Source of the DNA: a virus
DNA: 32,397 nt
Virus record (IMG/VR): IMGVR_UViG_3300044858_003382
Location: 1 to 32,397 of that record
Strand: one strand, 5' to 3'
The notes beneath the pieces were generated by a model. That model was not told the origin of the DNA, did no database searches, and worked only from the letters and a program-made list of their open reading frames with translations. This document shows, in pieces, positions 8,689 to 32,397 of the stretch. The position numbers and the translations under genes were made by a program. Position 1 is the first letter of the stretch. Each line of letters opens with the position of its first letter.

Positions 8689-10134
8689 TTAAGAACCTTT
8701 AGAGGCTTTTTTTTCATTGATGAGACGCTGCTGTTTTGCCCATTCGGTTTCAGCTTCTACAGCTGCTCCTCTCTGGCTGGTTACCCGGTTGCTTCCAGCC
8801 GGGAAAATTTGCTTGCCAAATGGAGTGGATTTGATTGAGCGGAGATCCTCAGAGTTTGATTTTTGAATATCCAGGATCTGAGTGAGTACATCCTGCATGC
8901 TGCGTACTGAAGTAGCCAATGCTTCGATCTGCCGGGTGCTGGCTTCAGCATCTGCTGTGCTTTCAGCGGCTACCGGAGCCGGAGCTTCTTCTACTTCTGG
9001 AGCCATTACCTCAGTGATCAATCCGGCTTCATCAGTTACGATGGTATAGCCTAACAGATCACCAGTTAATACATGCTCACCGGCAGGAGGCAAGTCGGTA
9101 GTGCCCAACAGGTACACCTGATCACCTACAGCTGGTACATCGGCTTCCGTCTCGATTGAAATATCAGCACCGCCTTCGGTTGTATTTTCAATTGATTTGG
9201 CACCGTTTTCGCCTCCACCAATTGCTGATTTTACAGACCTGGTAAGGGATGATAAACCTTTCTGGAGTTGCTCCAAAAGGCTTTGAGTGGATTTTTGATT
9301 CTTATTCATATCTACATTAATAGAATTCTTTTTGTTCCGAGCAGCTTCATACTTCCGGATAAATGATTCGGTTTTTTCCCGGTTCGAAATCATAAATTCA
9401 AACACATCCGGATTTGAATCCAGAAAGTCGAATACTGTGGCAGCCATTAATGGCTCGCCTTTAAAATTTCGGAAAAGGTTATTGGTGTTGGCACCGTCAT
9501 GCACGAAGTCGGTATAGTTCCAGTCTGTCACCGTTTCGTACAGGATCCTTGCGGCCTCTGGTTTGGCAGCCAGGAGATCGAAGTGCTCATCGTTGCCTAC
9601 TTCATAAGTTACCCGGTTGCCATTTTCATCGAGAAAATAAAGCGGCCCTGGTTGAAATACGATGCTCATCATAATAGCATCTGGATCCTCAGTCGCCTTT
9701 TCTAAAACATACTGGTAAAGGTTACCGTCCGGAGAGATGCGAGCACTGTGGCTTAATTGGATATCGCCCACTGCCCCATCGCCCTCCTTTCGAATGTTGG
9801 TTATGTAGCCCACATGCTTGCCCAGTTGCTCATCGCACATACCCGGATGCCCGAATCGGGCTTTTTGGCCTTTTTCCGGGAAGTTAGCAGATAAGGCCAC
9901 GAGCGATTCGATGAAGTCGATACCGGTTTCAACCCGTACCGGCATCTGCTCTGCACCCTTGTAAATTGAGCATTTGCCTGCAATGCCTTTGGGCTGCATC
10001 GCCTGGCACAGCAGTACTCCTTTAAGAGTGCCGGTTTCAGAGTCTACAGTAAAGCCAGAGCCAGCAGCAGCCCGATAAGTGGCTCCGTGTACCCGGCCTC
10101 TGCTATCCTGTAGCGGATGAACTTTTTTCTCCAT
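8689..10134 (-). CDS. Prohead maturation protease with C-terminal scaffold region
   Basis: A 481-residue protein from the ATG at 10134 (MEKKVHPLQD); an 11-codon upstream extension is possible but less likely. Residues 1-200 look like a head maturation serine protease: RFGHPG carries candidate catalytic His96, and AIMMSIVF carries candidate Ser157. The remainder is low-complexity, helical and Ala/Glu-rich (about 290-470) with a short beta unit (TGDLLGYTIVTDEAGLITEV) of the type seen in capsid scaffold-associated proteins. A protease-scaffold fusion would guide capsid assembly and then remove itself. It precedes the major capsid gene with a 33-base gap. Confidence 0.75.
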   Translation of the reverse strand: MEKKVHPLQDSRGRVHGATYRAAAGSGFTVDSETGTLKGVLLCQAMQPKGIAGKCSIYKGAEQMPVRVETGIDFIESLVALSANFPEKGQKARFGHPGMCDEQLGKHVGYITNIRKEGDGAVGDIQLSHSARISPDGNLYQYVLEKATEDPDAIMMSIVFQPGPLYFLDENGNRVTYEVGNDEHFDLLAAKPEAARILYETVTDWNYTDFVHDGANTNNLFRNFKGEPLMAATVFDFLDSNPDVFEFMISNREKTESFIRKYEAARNKKNSINVDMNKNQKSTQSLLEQLQKGLSSLTRSVKSAIGGGENGAKSIENTTEGGADISIETEADVPAVGDQVYLLGTTDLPPAGEHVLTGDLLGYTIVTDEAGLITEVMAPEVEEAPAPVAAESTADAEASTRQIEALATSVRSMQDVLTQILDIQKSNSEDLRSIKSTPFGKQIFPAGSNRVTSQRGAAVEAETEWAKQQRLINEKKASKGS

Positions 10135-11253: not shown

Positions 11254-11284
11254 CAAATTTAACTATCTGACATTGTACGACCAA
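11254..11284 (-). promoter_or_regulatory. Bacteroidetes-type promoter for the late region
   Basis: On the minus strand, TTG (11284-11282), a spacer of exactly 20 bases, and TAAATTTG (11261-11254) match the Bacteroidetes primary sigma consensus TTG-N19-21-TAnnTTTG at every fixed position. Transcription would start near 11248, leaving a very short leader before the ATG at 11235. A predicted AT-rich region lies upstream (11285-11427). Confidence 0.8.
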
Positions 11285-11440
11285 AACAATTATAAATAAG
11301 ATACTTAAGTATATTCTAACATCAGGACGATGTACTACCTAAATTATAGGATAAGTACAATAGATATTTTTTCAGCCAACTTATCGGATAAAAAATTGAA
11401 CTCTAAATCGAAATCGAATTTAAACATGTGAAAGAGCCAC

Positions 11441-14402: not shown

Positions 14403-14636
14403 TTACATATTTTTTGCATTGTAGAAAATTGATTTTTGGAGCAGTGCCTTGCGCTGGTAGTGAGAAGTTACATTCTCCGCTTTACAGGCAATTTCGAACA
14501 CTTCCATCACCGCTCCATGTGACTTATCTAAGGCCAGAAGTACATCGGCCATCTTCATCCCATCTGTGAGCACGTTCACTTTCATTTTACCGGTTTCATC
14601 CCGGTGCGTTTCAATCGTTATTTTTTCGTTTTGCAT
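14403..14636 (-). CDS. Unknown small protein, first gene after the GGWCC array
   Basis: A 77-residue protein with an N-terminal beta segment (KITIETHRDETGKMKVNVLTDG) followed by helices. Unknown function. It is the first gene downstream of the non-coding array, so any promoter in the array would serve it and the genes to 12672. Confidence 0.65.
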   Translation of the reverse strand: MQNEKITIETHRDETGKMKVNVLTDGMKMADVLLALDKSHGAVMEVFEIACKAENVTSHYQRKALLQKSIFYNAKNM

Positions 14637-14992
14637 AAAAAGTTCATTCTAAAATTATGGACCGATGCTTTACACATCTAATCCGCTGAATATTTGGTTT
14701 TTAACTCTCATAACATTGGACCATTTCGGTCCGTTTTTATTTTTTCTCTGTCTGTAACTCTTTATAGGTCAGTTACTTTACTGATAATCGCTTGGTCCGT
14801 TTTTTGGACCGATTTTCGGTCCAAATTTTGGACCGATGGTTTTCACGTAATCGGCTCACTATCAAATAATAAGCCTTGTGAAATTTCTGCATTTGGACCG
14901 AAACGGTCCAATGTTATGGAACCTAAAAGGCTGTATTTCAATGCTTTTACTATGGTTTTGATCGGTCCGTTTTTTTTCATTGTCCTTTTAGT
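14637..14992. repeat. Dyad-symmetric array of ten GGWCC sites; candidate replication origin
   Basis: A 356-base non-coding stretch inside an otherwise gap-free operon. GGACC or GGTCC begins at 14659, 14718, 14728, 14794, 14806, 14818, 14830, 14895, 14905 and 14964. Spacings are 59, 10, 66, 12, 12, 12, 65, 10 and 59, a mirror-image pattern about 14813-14814, and the orientation (GGACC versus GGTCC) is also mirrored for all five pairs. Flanks give the consensus TTGGACCGA. Most sequence between the sites is not conserved between arms, apart from ATAACATTGGACC, so spacing itself seems constrained. Protein-binding iterons of a replication origin, or an operator/partition array, are the main options. 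Confidence 0.85.
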
Positions 14993-15205
14993 TTAAAAAG
15001 GCAAATCCTCTCCAAATGGCCTGCAATCCTTTACATCCCATTTCACGGTTTCAAACGATTTAATTGTGGCCAAAACCCAGGCCTTTTTGCTCAAAGTTTC
15101 TGCCAGCCTTTTGGCTTCTTTTTCGGCCGCTTCAAGGCTGCTATGTTTAAAGGCTGGCATCCTGCCGCCTTCGACAAACACCATATAAAATGATTGATTT
15201 TCCAT
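14993..15205 (-). CDS. Small conserved-type protein next to the array
   Basis: A 70-residue protein (MVFVEGGRMPAFKHSSLEAA.. and a C-terminal FGEDLPF). The pattern with a short beta start, EAEKEAKRLAE-like helix, a second strand (AWVLATIKSFE) and ending in DLPF recalls small hypothetical proteins I have seen in Bacteroidetes phages. Function unknown. It separates the DUF3987 ATPase gene from the GGWCC array. Confidence 0.68.
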   Translation of the reverse strand: MENQSFYMVFVEGGRMPAFKHSSLEAAEKEAKRLAETLSKKAWVLATIKSFETVKWDVKDCRPFGEDLPF

Positions 15206-15234: not shown

Positions 15235-16665
15235 CTAATTCAAAAAGTCCTTTGGATACTTATTCCGGTAGCTGATTACTTTTCGTGTAATGCTGGTTTT
15301 CGTAAACCCTTTTCCGTAGATCTCGCCCAGGTGTTCGGCTATTTTGGCGTAGCTCATGCCTCGCTTTATGCAGTTGGAGATGATGCTCGGCTCTTCGGGT
15401 AGTCTTCGGTTATCGGCCATTTTGGAAACTTCCAGATAGCTGTACATGAAGTAGTCTGTAGCCGTTAGCGCACGGGCCATTACTTCCTCATCTATGCTCT
15501 GGATGTACTTCACATCGCCATACTGCTTGCAGGCTTCATCCATGCAGCGCAGGATGAGCGCAAACCGGATCGCATACTCGCCCAGCTTACCAAATGCGCC
15601 CTTGTAAGTCTCACGGTTTACGGCATCGTCATCCTTCAAATTGTCGGCCTTCTGCTTGTGGAGCCGCTTCCACTTATCCAGCAGCTCCACCGCCTTCCGG
15701 GAGCATTTCACCACCTTCGATTCTTCGGCTTTGATTCCAAACAGGCCCACCGTCAGCTCATAGTACAGCTTTCGCACCATGTTCTCATACCGACTGTACG
15801 CCTCCATATCCGGTTCAAAGTCGATGTCGGGCACCAGAGTCTTATTCTCTTTATCGAGAGCGAAGAGCATCCGGTAGGTGAAGCCTGTGAAATCCCGATC
15901 CTGTGCGAATATCCGCTTCACCATGGCAGGCTGTGTAGTGCCGATGAGGGTGGTGAAAGTCCGTGGAATGATCAACGCCCTACGCATGCTCACCTTATCG
16001 TACTTGTACGGCCTTTTTGCACTCCATGCTTCGAGCAGGAATGGCTCAAAGTCCTCGTTGTTCTTCTTCATGAATTCGGCCATTAGGGTGATGATCTCCT
16101 CTTTCCACAGGATCACGCCTTTCGGATTCGATTTCAGTGCCTTCTGGAGGAATGCCGGGAACGTACCCTTCTTGAAGATGATGGTCTTCTCTTCATAATC
16201 ATCGTAATCTGCATCATTGTTGGCCATTTGCCCGGCATCTGTGCGGCTCCGGTAATCTGCCTGGTTATCGCCAGCCATATCCATATCGATGTTTTCAAAG
16301 ACTTCGAAAAGCCGATCCATGCAGAAGGTTTTCCCGGAGCTGGTCTCACCAACAGCACAAGCCCAGATCGCTGGGTAGGTGCGCTGCGTGTGTGCCTCGG
16401 CCAGATAATAGGATCCTATGGATGCTCCACCCGATGCAAGCATGAACAGGCCCACAAAGGAGCGAGGGATGTGGAGCCGCTCTGTAAGCTCCCGGATGTA
16501 GTGGTGCAATTCCACCGGGAAAATCTCCAGGGGAAAAACCTCCATCGCATCACGTTTAAATAACTCCCGCAGCAGCTGCTCCCGGCTCTGTGTGGATGTG
16601 CCATTCTCGTAAACATTACCACTTGTCTGCTTCTTGTAGACTTCCCACGATTTATCCAGCTGCAT
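15235..16665 (-). CDS. DUF3987-like replication ATPase/helicase
   Basis: A 476-residue protein. Walker A is GETSSGKT at residues 106-113 and a Walker B-like strand is GVILWKEE near 185. The overall pattern (LASGGASIG, YPAIWACAVGETSSGKT, ALIIPRTFTTLIGTTQPAMV, TGFTYRMLF) is that of DUF3987 proteins, primase/helicase-associated ATPases of phages and plasmids. The C-terminal end (SIISNCIKRGMSYAKIAEHLG) looks like a winged helix. It follows and overlaps by 14 bases a gene resembling the N-terminal domain of DnaB. I infer that it unwinds phage DNA during replication, probably at or near the array. Confidence 0.78.
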   Translation of the reverse strand: MQLDKSWEVYKKQTSGNVYENGTSTQSREQLLRELFKRDAMEVFPLEIFPVELHHYIRELTERLHIPRSFVGLFMLASGGASIGSYYLAEAHTQRTYPAIWACAVGETSSGKTFCMDRLFEVFENIDMDMAGDNQADYRSRTDAGQMANNDADYDDYEEKTIIFKKGTFPAFLQKALKSNPKGVILWKEEIITLMAEFMKKNNEDFEPFLLEAWSAKRPYKYDKVSMRRALIIPRTFTTLIGTTQPAMVKRIFAQDRDFTGFTYRMLFALDKENKTLVPDIDFEPDMEAYSRYENMVRKLYYELTVGLFGIKAEESKVVKCSRKAVELLDKWKRLHKQKADNLKDDDAVNRETYKGAFGKLGEYAIRFALILRCMDEACKQYGDVKYIQSIDEEVMARALTATDYFMYSYLEVSKMADNRRLPEEPSIISNCIKRGMSYAKIAEHLGEIYGKGFTKTSITRKVISYRNKYPKDFLN

Positions 16666-17284
16666 TTATAATCTCATTTAACACGTTTACGAATGGTTTC
16701 ATTTTGGCCGGCTCCTGGTGGGCCATAGCACGAAGGTTCTGGATCAATAAGCCAGCTCGTTTGGAATCCAGTAAAGCCCCGGCTCTCTGGTCCATCTGGA
16801 TCAGCAGCTGCGTGAGCTGCTCGGCAAGCTCCGGCAGATCCACATCACTGCAATAGTTGGCAGCGGCTGTAATCATCTGCCAGACATCATTTTCAGGATT
16901 TTCTATATCCTTCTCCAGAGGAGCCAGAGGGATAAGCACTTTATCCCGGTTAGTTTTAAGTATCCGGACGGCCTCGGCCCTGAAGCAATGCTCCAGCAGA
17001 TACAGGCAGGCACTCACCAGTGGCAGGAAGTTACTTCCGGCCATCATCATCCGGGCCAGTACTATGGCTTTTATACCAGTCTTTTTCCGGATTTCACCCA
17101 GCAAGTGGCTCCCGGCATTGAGATGCACATCGGGATTGTTGGCCATCCAGCTCATTACCAGGATGGCATCTTTGTCTGCCAGATTCCGGATGGTGATGTA
17201 CTGCGTTACCACAGCCAGATTCGAAGGATCGGTTAGGCAACTGCCCACGATCCGGTACTCTAAGTGCTGGCGTATATCAACCAT
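16652..17284 (-). CDS. DnaB N-terminal-domain-like protein without the ATPase domain
   Basis: A 210-residue helical protein. The start (HLEYRIVGSCLTDPSNLAVVTQYI, ADKDAILVMSWM, SHLLGEIRKKTG) follows the DnaB N-terminal domain pattern (EqavLGalLldp..., lvtlaeeL). No Walker motif or C-terminal helicase domain is present, so it may act as a helicase loader or primase-interacting partner for the DUF3987 ATPase downstream. The ATG at 17284 is ten bases after an AGGAG motif; a GTG at 17290 is an alternative. It overlaps the upstream stop by eight bases. Confidence 0.6.
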   Translation of the reverse strand: MVDIRQHLEYRIVGSCLTDPSNLAVVTQYITIRNLADKDAILVMSWMANNPDVHLNAGSHLLGEIRKKTGIKAIVLARMMMAGSNFLPLVSACLYLLEHCFRAEAVRILKTNRDKVLIPLAPLEKDIENPENDVWQMITAAANYCSDVDLPELAEQLTQLLIQMDQRAGALLDSKRAGLLIQNLRAMAHQEPAKMKPFVNVLNEIINAAG

Positions 17285-17483
17285 GCTCACCGATCTCCTT
17301 TAAAAGTTGGTGATAATAGCTTTGCGCCCTTTTTATGAGGGTTTTTTCCCTCTGCTTTAAGGCTTTGAGCCTTTCCGGCTTTCTTACCGGTGCAGGAGTC
17401 TTAAAATACTCCTCCTGGAGTGCATTTATGGTGAGTATTTCACTCAGAAAATCCTTCAGCTCTGAGACATTGGCAGTAATCAT
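17277..17483 (-). CDS. Small basic helical protein, early operon
   Basis: A 68-residue, lysine- and arginine-rich helical protein (VRKPERLKALKQREKTLIKRAQ). Unknown function; may bind nucleic acid. It overlaps the DnaB-N-like gene by eight bases and follows the next gene after four bases. Confidence 0.65.
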   Translation of the reverse strand: MITANVSELKDFLSEILTINALQEEYFKTPAPVRKPERLKALKQREKTLIKRAQSYYHQLLKEIGEHG

Positions 17484-18276: not shown

Positions 18277-18304
18277 TACTGACTAACAAGGTCATTTACT
18301 GACC
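18277..18304. promoter_or_regulatory. Operator-like repeats in the divergent control region
   Basis: TACTGAC occurs at 18277-18283 and 18297-18303, exactly 20 bases apart, about two helical turns. GGTCA (18290-18294) and TGACC (18300-18304) form an inverted repeat. These lie between the repressor and the divergent early gene and are candidate repressor-binding sites. Confidence 0.5.
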
Positions 18305-18961: not shown

Positions 18962-18986
18962 ACCGGTTCGAATCCGGTATGATTCA
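18962..18986 (+). other. attP core: tRNA 3'-end mimic
   Basis: ACCGG (18962-18966), loop TTCGAAT (18967-18973) and CCGGT (18974-18978) form a perfect tRNA T-arm, followed by seven bases and an A resembling the acceptor 3' strand and discriminator. No D-arm or 5' half exists here, so this is not a tRNA gene. Phages that integrate into tRNA genes carry just such a 3' segment to rebuild the gene. It lies between repressor and integrase. Confidence 0.8.
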
Positions 18987-30434: not shown

Positions 30435-30938
30435 TTACTGCCACCATCGGGCATAGTTATAAAGTTGTTTTGTTGGCCTTGTGAGTCGGCATACACCGGA
30501 TCCTTCCCGGCTCCCAAATCCGTTGGTATTGCCTTCTATTGTAACAATGAATTTTTCGCCTGGCAGAACTTGCTCAACTATGCCGATGTGCCCGATCCTG
30601 TTTAGGTATTTATTCCAGACTGAAAATACATCTCCTGGCACAATTGATTTGACCAATCGGGAAGGCACAAACCAGCTCATGGCCATGCCTCCTCCAGCCG
30701 GGCATCCACAATCCAGATGCACCGCTCTGGCCGTCCATCCACACCATGCCTGCCCCGGTTTACCTCCAGCCCTTAAAATAAGTTTATCTACTTCCGGCCC
30801 ACGGTTGTTCTGGCCCGGTGCTTCTTTGATGCCGATAAGCTTCCGGGCTTCGATCAAAATGCAGTGAGCCTTTGACTGGCCTACAGCATCGAGGTCAATG
30901 CCCAGATGGATAAGGCATAGAAGCAGAAGTACACGCAT
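30435..30938 (-). CDS. CHAP-domain endolysin with signal peptide
   Basis: A 167-residue lytic enzyme. Residues 1-21 (MRVLLLLCLIHLGIDLDAVG) resemble a signal peptide or signal-arrest segment, so export does not depend on the holin. The CHAP catalytic set is present: Cys66 in AWCGW, His117 in GHIGIV, and Glu135/Asn137 in IEGNTNG. It cleaves peptidoglycan peptide bonds (amidase or endopeptidase). The first 58 bases overlap the 3' end of the holin-like gene. It lies immediately after the holin-like gene and before a two-helix membrane protein. Confidence 0.87.
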   Translation of the reverse strand: MRVLLLLCLIHLGIDLDAVGQSKAHCILIEARKLIGIKEAPGQNNRGPEVDKLILRAGGKPGQAWCGWTARAVHLDCGCPAGGGMAMSWFVPSRLVKSIVPGDVFSVWNKYLNRIGHIGIVEQVLPGEKFIVTIEGNTNGFGSREGSGVCRLTRPTKQLYNYARWWQ

Positions 30939-31210
30939 AGAGATACGATTTCTTGTTTGTCAAAATAATCTTCATCATCAAAAAGGATTTTAAACTTCTC
31001 CGGAAAGTTTAAGCGCACAGCCATAGATGCCATGAATCCAGCGATGTACATCACGGCAGCTCCTGCCAGAATGTTGGTAAAGTAACCCGGAGGAATCAGC
31101 CCTGCCTCTGGCCCGAAGTAGTGATACACTCCGTAGTAAGCGAGTCCGAAAACAAGGATCGCCAGCGGAGAGAAGATAAGCTCGTTGAATTTTTTCCAGA
31201 AGTTTTTCAT
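30881..31210 (-). CDS. Holin-like membrane protein (copy 2)
   Basis: Encodes exactly the same 109 residues as 33-362, with about 20 nucleotide changes, all silent. Three hydrophobic segments. Its last 58 bases code in another frame for the endolysin signal peptide, so this stretch is under double constraint; indeed that overlap is unchanged between the copies. The unambiguous ATG at 31210 defines the start for both copies. Confidence 0.75.
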   Translation of the reverse strand: MKNFWKKFNELIFSPLAILVFGLAYYGVYHYFGPEAGLIPPGYFTNILAGAAVMYIAGFMASMAVRLNFPEKFKILFDDEDYFDKQEIVSLCVYFCFYALSIWALTSML

Positions 31211-31830
31211 TTTATGATTGAAAGGTTTGAAAGTGTATCGATGCTTGTGTTCGGATTAAATACAAGTAGTTTAATATTTCGCTTGCGCTTGCCCCAGTTC
31301 CAAGGCAGGATGTGCTTGGCCTTCCATCGGTCCTTTGATTCAAGCACAGCGATCTGGTTGGTGGTCTTGGTTTGAACCGTTGCCGAATCGCCCTCCACCA
31401 GAACAGTACCGGATTCAAATTTGGAATGCCATTTTAAAACTTTGGCAGGAATCCGAATTGTATCCCGGACTGTGATCCGGATTACAGTGGTATCGTGTAC
31501 CGGTACTTTAACAATTCGGTCTGTGGTTAATTTTGCTTCCACCACACTGAGCACTTTACCCAGATCCTGATTTGTTTTTTTCGAAAACTCGGCCAGCTTA
31601 TCATCCATGAGGTTTGAGAATGTTTCCTTCGATACCTCTGCTTTGGGCTGGCTTGCTACCGTCTCCCCGGTTGCCGATTTGGTTATTATGGTTTGAGGAT
31701 TAGATACCTGGTTCAATCCTTTGATTTCTTCTTTGAGATCTGCGATCTGGTTGTAATCCAGGTAAATGAAAGCCACGCACCCACTAAGCAGAATAAGCAG
31801 TGGAAGAATATATCTAATTGTTCCATCCAT
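31207..31830 (-). CDS. Spanin-like membrane-anchored coiled-coil protein (copy 2)
   Basis: A 207-residue homologue of the protein at 359-985, with about ten residue differences and one residue shorter at the end (SIIK versus SIIQK). Here the hydrophobic N-terminus ends in LSGC, a regular lipobox, strengthening the idea that it is a lipoprotein; copy 1 has LCGC. Coupled to the XhlA-like gene by TGATG and to the holin-like gene by ATGA. Confidence 0.65.
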   Translation of the reverse strand: MDGTIRYILPLLILLSGCVAFIYLDYNQIADLKEEIKGLNQVSNPQTIITKSATGETVASQPKAEVSKETFSNLMDDKLAEFSKKTNQDLGKVLSVVEAKLTTDRIVKVPVHDTTVIRITVRDTIRIPAKVLKWHSKFESGTVLVEGDSATVQTKTTNQIAVLESKDRWKAKHILPWNWGKRKRNIKLLVFNPNTSIDTLSNLSIIK

Positions 31831-32111
31831 TAGTTTACGGATTGCCTCCGAGTGGTCCGCTGTGGCTTCAATGTTTCTTTACCTTCGAGGTATCCCTTCA
31901 GCATGGCCAGAGATTCGGATATCTCATGGAGTGCCTTAGTTAATTCCTTTCGCTCCTTCCGGTCCTCATGCGTTTCTTTCTCGAGGCAATCGACCTTTTC
32001 TTCGAGCTTGGTCATCTTATTGGATATGCGGATGTAGATCCCAATCACGGCACCTATTATCCCGGTAGCCGCAGCTATTAAATAGAGGTAGAATTCAAAG
32101 GGTAGTTGCAT
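31830..32111 (-). CDS. XhlA-like membrane/coiled-coil protein (copy 2)
   Basis: A 93-residue protein (MQLPFEFYLY..) from the ATG at 32111, equal to that at 985-1266 except for residue 2. A GTG at 32117 would extend it by two residues. An N-terminal transmembrane helix precedes a charged coiled coil. The upstream stop is TGA here and TAA in copy 1. Confidence 0.65.
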   Translation of the reverse strand: MQLPFEFYLYLIAAATGIIGAVIGIYIRISNKMTKLEEKVDCLEKETHEDRKERKELTKALHEISESLAMLKGYLEGKETLKPQRTTRRQSVN

Positions 32112-32113
32112 AA

Positions 32114-32397
32114 TCACAATCGAAAGGATTTTTTGGATGCGTTATCTGGCAGTGAAGCTTCGGCCGCTCTGGCTGTGGCTTCGGTTGGTACCGGAAAATC
32201 CGGATAGTCAGCAGCATTTTCATTCAGGAATTTCTTCAAAGCTGCCTCATAGCTGTCCGCCATCGATACATATTTCTGGAGCATCACACTAAGTTGGTCC
32301 TTGGTCCAGGTGATACCAGTACCGGTACTGGATTGGAACATGTTATCGGATGCAGTGGATACCTTCATGCCGGCACTGCTTAAAGTCACCACCATTT
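32114..32397 (-). CDS. Head-tail adaptor, C-terminal fragment (copy 2, cut by window end)
   Basis: The last 93 to 94 codons of the DUF6712-like adaptor gene. The visible residues are the same as the C-terminus of 1269-2279 (ending ASKKSFRL) despite silent base changes. The remainder of this copy lies beyond the window. Confidence 0.8.
   Translation of the reverse strand, partial: MVVTLSSAGMKVSTASDNMFQSSTGTGITWTKDQLSVMLQKYVSMADSYEAALKKFLNENAADYPDFPVPTEATARAAEASLPDNASKKSFRL

Follow-up and report, generated by a model that had tools for sequence, protein, structure and literature searches.

The window analyzed here covers the whole of a virus record in IMG/VR (32,397 bp) from a Bacteroidota-type phage. 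Its minus strand encodes the tail, capsid, and terminase proteins, and its plus strand carries the genes for a tyrosine integrase and for a repressor of the HTH type. The two contig ends (1–1552 and about 30849–32397) share an overlap of 1,552 bp that is only 91% identical, which points to a circular genome closed with a second strain variant. A minus-strand gene encoding a DUF3987 P-loop ATPase is preceded by the gene for an all-helical protein, possibly, to judge by its sequence pattern only, a DnaB-N-like partner, and followed by a small gene, a non-coding gap, and a further small gene (Table 1). The gap, of 356 bp, is the largest among the gaps between listed genes and, as originally noted, lies one small gene downstream of the ATPase.

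Table 1. Features of the array, its surroundings, and related contigs (window coordinates unless a contig is named).
Feature	Position	Strand	Remarks
DUF3987 P-loop ATPase, predicted replicative helicase	15235..16665	-	Pfam PF13148 E=9e-25; PHROG DNA helicase
212-aa all-helical protein, upstream of DUF3987	16652..17290	-	54% identical in G005
70-aa gene between DUF3987 and array	14993..15205	-
77-aa gene	14403..14636	-	start 22 bp past last site
Mirror-symmetric ten-site array, proposed replication origin	14637..14992	.	geometry kept in G005 and L005
Core: four sites (4–7, minus-strand order) at 12-bp steps, A-tract linkers	14794..14834	.	dyad centre 14813–14814
Inner pair, left arm (minus-strand order): perfect inverted repeat TTGGACCGAAACGGTCCAA	14893..14911	.	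sites 10 bp apart
Inner pair, right arm: GGACCATTTCGGTCC	14718..14732	.	sites 10 bp apart
Conserved element CCATAACATTGGACC (site 2)	14905..14919	-	GGWCC retained in G005 despite eight other sites switching
Mirror copy of conserved element, CATAACATTGGACC (site 9)	14709..14722	+
Outermost site 1	14964..14968	.
Outermost site 10	14659..14663	.
Inverted repeat GGTCATTTACTGACC, gap between repressor and early operon	18290..18304	.	motif unlike array; G005 counterpart is a third motif
tRNA-3'-end-like sequence ACCGGTTCGAATCCGGT, next to integrase	18962..18978	+
TTTTGGTCTGATTTTGTCC-type boxes, often two copies, upstream of conserved HKLP gene at late operon start	window 11257-11340; L127:395-480; L005:3375-3455; L132:2700-2780
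9-bp-stepped GTTGGAAC or AACTACC arrays, BT4734-like-primase relatives	L130:17375-17640 and 9692-9815; L136:134-384; L132:2282-2565

The gap holds ten GGWCC pentamers (starts 14659, 14718, 14728, 14794, 14806, 14818, 14830, 14895, 14905, and 14964), which span 14659–14968 and have the fuller motif TGGACCGA or CGGACCGA. Their spacings are 59-10-66-12-12-12-65-10-59 and the orientation of W is mirrored in five of five pairs, both exactly as predicted; the starts of paired sites sum to 29623, 29623, 29623, 29624, and 29624. A core of four sites is flanked by one inner pair in each arm, while the outer sites 1 and 10 stand singly and sites 2 and 9 behave unlike the others. The window contains this single cluster of the array sites only, as do the searched parts of the related phage G005. 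Outside the array GGWCC occurs at the background rate and is not avoided genome-wide once base context is modelled; restriction-site avoidance was rejected as a cause, the depletion of GGWCC vanishing under a higher-order model.

About 0.46 GGWCC would be expected in such a span, in line with the predicted figure of fewer than one (Poisson P(≥10) about 8e-11, before correction for scanning), and the densest cluster in 300 order-3 Markov genomes held at most six. With both ends fixed, random positions fit a mirror as well only about once in a million. A chance origin of the array and its symmetry, for which the original prediction had proposed genome shuffling as a check, is excluded by these randomisations. 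The arms are identical at 41 of 170 positions, which is the chance level and rules out an inverted duplication, as also anticipated. A 45-aa reading frame in one arm (14843–14980, minus strand) is unsupported as coding sequence, since differences from G005 fall at codon positions 1, 2, and 3 in the numbers 17, 16, and 11, and an RNA element was rejected as no Rfam match rose above its gathering score. The array is A/T-rich, within the top 1.4% of the genome for low stability but not at its minimum, and GC skew shows no switch there.

Relatives of the HKLP late protein are encoded on ten viral contigs. One of them, G005, encodes a DUF3987 protein that is 88% identical to that of the window, and directly behind this gene lies a homologous, perfectly symmetric array (59-10-65-12-12-12-65-10-59). 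Here, 8 of the 10 sites read GGGAC/GTCCC in place of GGWCC, with two of the five bases changed in each relative to the matching window site. GGWCC persists at sites 2 and 9, which share the context ACATTGGACC. This GGGAC-type phage also encodes a C5-cytosine methyltransferase (L133:7303-8217). Linkers of equal length are 68% identical between the two phages. All seven copies of TGGGACG in the searched G005 DNA lie within the array, and GGGAC is found nowhere else in that DNA (0 versus 9.9 expected).

A second related phage, collinear with the window and with 43–61% protein identity in the genes compared, was found by the exact core pattern on a 12.5-kb contig (L005). This contig begins inside the array, so that only the right half is present, with the same GGWCC motif at offsets 0, 12, 24, 36, 101, 111, and 169 (window: 0, 12, 24, 36, 101, 111, and 170); the DUF3987 gene, if present, is off the contig. 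The 60-bp linker is about half identical to that of the window (29/60), and the core linkers match the window at 18 of 21 positions in L005 and likewise at 18 of 21 in G005. A homologue of the 70-aa gene sits downstream of the array in L005, so the array stays fixed while genes shuffle round it.

A motif-free scan for the geometry recovered 10 of 10 sites in the window, 8 of 10 in G005, and 7 of 7 in L005, compared with a background of 4–5 in relatives with other replication proteins. Elsewhere among viral contigs, the core occurs only in G005 and L005 among the pattern matches listed. A degenerate GGWCC-core scan returned mainly tandem-repeat sequences of unrelated layout, with L005 the only fit among the matches listed; one further candidate, L004, was rejected as a tandem-repeat coincidence. 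Scans of genome contigs with alignments of HKLP and terminase turned up no relatives in cellular genomes. The exact layout is thus known in three phages, in one of them as a half array. As the layout was kept in G005 while the sites switched and the linkers drifted, we consider the geometry to be selected, and the predicted pattern of kept spacing and drifting linkers is seen in both related phages. Such a joint change under fixed geometry is what the binding sites of a single protein would show if its specificity had altered. We infer a sequence-specific protein of changing specificity as the reader of the sites; no other simple cause was seen. The kept pattern and the jointly changed site sequence mark the array as a working control site.

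Other HKLP relatives have a different replication protein. Six encode closely related BT4734-like/PriCT_2 primase-helicases (86–100% identity) and a seventh, L132, has one at 43%. The DUF3987 query matched in none of these seven, a GGWCC cluster was present in 0 of 7, and the ten-site geometry was absent from all those scanned. Instead, they carry GTTGGAAC-type sites, some at 9-bp steps, upstream of the HKLP gene, and several possess another such array close to the terminase; in L132 the sites are of the AACTACC type. In L130 and L132 the array contains the least stable DNA of the locus. Since these relatives have other motifs and no GGWCC cluster, the type of repeat follows that of the replication protein within the sample examined. 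The two L130 arrays of one motif lie in different places, one of them adjoining a TATATATA block. In Polaribacter phage Leef_1 (NC_062750 29150-29400), seven GATTACA/TGTAATC sites occupy an A/T-rich gap that precedes gp39; the C-terminus of gp39 is similar to the HKLP protein.

We also looked directly 3' of DUF3987-family genes in other elements. In three gut scaffolds, whose DUF3987 proteins are about 21% identical to that of the window, mirror-oriented repeats follow right after the stop codon (for example, three copies of TTGCAGT and then ACTGCAA-type repeats). Mirror repeats were also found in the Bacteroides plasmid pFunn3_1 (L169; TTTCAGT...ACTGAAA), in Acinetobacter pYUSHP14-1 (ACTGACA...TGTCAGT), and in a Bartonella plasmid (GAAGG-type). 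In L166, L167, L168, L169, and the Bartonella locus L174, the first 130 bp 3' of the gene are the locus maximum of inverted 6-mer density, equalled by none of about 290 control windows; the stop position in L168 is approximate, its reading frame being broken near the gene end. The same holds for the first 150 bp in Acinetobacter L177. Repeats at this position are weak in L170, L171, and L172; in L180 they are direct and not inverted, and they are absent from the Planktothrix (cyanobacterial) plasmid L175 and from K-12 yfjI. In a Sulfitobacter plasmid (L179) the position is taken by one long hairpin rather than by iterons, which recalls the stem-loop origin of pRN1. Overall, repeats stand directly 3' of DUF3987-family genes, often in mirror orientation, in most elements checked, a trend rather than a rate given that the sample was chosen by similarity, not randomly, and that short exact words served as the criterion for arrays. 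The array is immediately 3' of the gene in G005 and in most of these elements; in the window the 70-aa gene intervenes.

Repeat arrays are frequent at this position in mobile elements with DUF3987-family genes, which makes an origin bound by an initiator the best-supported function, and we put the probability that the array is the origin of a DUF3987-type replicon at about 0.68, judging from comparisons of sequence. Several copies of a short repeat lie in non-coding DNA adjoining the gene of a putative initiator (DUF3987), and the repeat sequence differs between the window and G005 (GGWCC versus GGGAC) with the layout kept, both as expected of iteron origins. A close parallel is the rep-ori of PICI/SaPI elements, whose origins are immediately 3' of rep, with two sets of short iterons flanking A/T-rich DNA and iteron sequences given separately for each element (PMC6092414). 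The locus differs from these in its DUF3987 protein, in its ten sites, which form a fixed dyad of 310 bp around a core of four sites at 12-bp steps, in belonging to a tailed phage rather than a satellite, and in having no single strong A/T-rich melting block. The proposal of an origin bound by an initiator remains the best supported, whereas the predicted "new type" was too strong, as PICI origins share repeats 3' of the initiator gene. As an origin, the array would be of a kind already known, with iterons 3' of rep, and its novelty lies in the fixed dyad of ten sites and in the joint switch of motif.

Other known origins can be compared as well. Those of plasmid pRN1 and phage BIP-1 form one large stem-loop (PMC4234260), whereas the window arms do not pair (41/170). 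The PLE origin, with a RepA_N initiator, resembles the array in having iterons that include inverted sub-repeats and an A-tract (PMC7145576), but its initiator family is different and it has no ten-site dyad. The SV40 core origin likewise has four pentanucleotide sites, which are read by the origin-binding domain of the T-antigen helicase as it assembles into a double hexamer (PMC5295021). The protein families are unrelated, and the analogy is one of layout only. In the searchable literature, mostly without subscription journals, we found no report of DUF3987 with iterons.

The most likely candidate to bind the array is the DUF3987 ATPase itself. Residues 428–461 weakly match an IS256 transposase model (E=0.019) in a part that we take to be its HTH. 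AlphaFold models (pLDDT 34 and 50) did not have the quality needed for fold searches. In the poor model of the ATPase, modest confidence is reached only by three helices at residues 425–469; these C-terminal helices resemble a helix-turn-helix. PDB sequence searches gave no match for the whole protein and only insignificant POU-domain HTH matches for the C-terminus. DUF3987 proteins are predicted helicases, and C-terminal winged helices in such proteins are predicted to read origins (PMC5862659). The C-terminus barely differs between the window and G005 (A440S, T455Q, T457S, and T460S), with the last three changes in the presumed recognition helix. As so little changed though the site specificity switched, the reader may be another protein, an early partner such as the 212-aa protein encoded upstream.

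We propose that a sequence-specific protein, most likely the DUF3987 ATPase by way of its C-terminal helix-turn-helix and otherwise an early partner, would bind the ten sites of 7–8 bp (TGGACCGA type in the window, TGGGACG type in G005). Paired binding, at the inner inverted repeats as well as at the core of four sites, would give rise to a complex with two-fold symmetry. This complex would melt the A/T-rich linkers, and two helicases would then be placed facing away from each other for two-way replication. The identity of the binder, the start of replication at the array, and the two-way loading of helicases are steps that we infer.

The original prediction also allowed for an operator. The gap between the repressor and the early operon carries its own inverted repeat (GGTCATTTACTGACC), probably the repressor operator, and this differs from the array motif in both the window and G005; a CI-type operator is unlikely, as the array motif is missing from that region. 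A phage regulator might still loop or coat DNA from the ten sites as an operator or silencer controlling early-to-middle transcription. The position of the array within the operon, upstream of poorly conserved small genes, would suit this, as would the inner pairs, classic inverted repeats whose half-sites are one helical turn apart as for a dimeric repressor. We nevertheless regard such a role as unlikely, given that GGWCC occurs only at the background rate outside the array, that no Bacteroidota-type promoter pattern was found within it, and that similar repeats behind DUF3987-family genes of unrelated elements would be left unexplained. The repeated boxes resembling TTTTGGTCTGATTTTGTCC that precede the HKLP gene, 3.4 kb off, are likely late-promoter or activator sites, which also makes the array an unlikely late promoter.

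Mirror-arranged multi-site arrays are known from cos/pac, resolution, and parS-like sites, but a role in packaging, recombination, or partition seems very improbable for this array. The terminase small-subunit candidate is 8.4 kb away, and relatives with a similar terminase and another replication protein have no such array in the geometry scan. A probable attP, the tRNA-end-like ACCGGTTCGAATCCGGT, lies beside the integrase, 4 kb from the array, so the array is an unlikely attP; no whole tRNA was found. No ParA, ParB, resolvase, or protelomerase family was matched among the proteins scanned, nor was a ParA/ParB partner in Pfam or PHROG among the proteins searched (a set leaving out some small and tail-region ORFs). 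We give equally little weight to a replication-control locus, for initiator titration or as a second site, in place of the start point itself. One genome can hold more than one cluster, as the two arrays of L130 illustrate, and the single sites 1 and 10 and the divergent sites 2 and 9 would fit such a role, but since the window has one cluster only, and so do the parts of G005 searched, the start point would need to be without these sites.

A wider extension of the origin reading is possible, though doubtful on present comparisons. DUF3987 proteins might form a widespread class of helicases that bind origins unaided, by reading mirror arrays just 3' of the genes that encode them. The ten-site dyad of this phage would then set two helicase rings head to head, making it the equivalent, in a virus of bacteria, of the double-hexamer origins of SV40 and papillomavirus, and a few substitutions in the recognition helix would suffice to switch the code. 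No function has yet been assigned to DUF3987, a domain present on phages, plasmids, and mobilizable elements. The fixed spacing and jointly changing letters beside its gene provide a direct and testable link of this helicase family to an origin. With helicases that are 88% identical, the same geometry, and a different site sequence, the window and G005 come close to a natural specificity swap, and could yield a simple model for two-way loading and a basis for Bacteroidota replicons.
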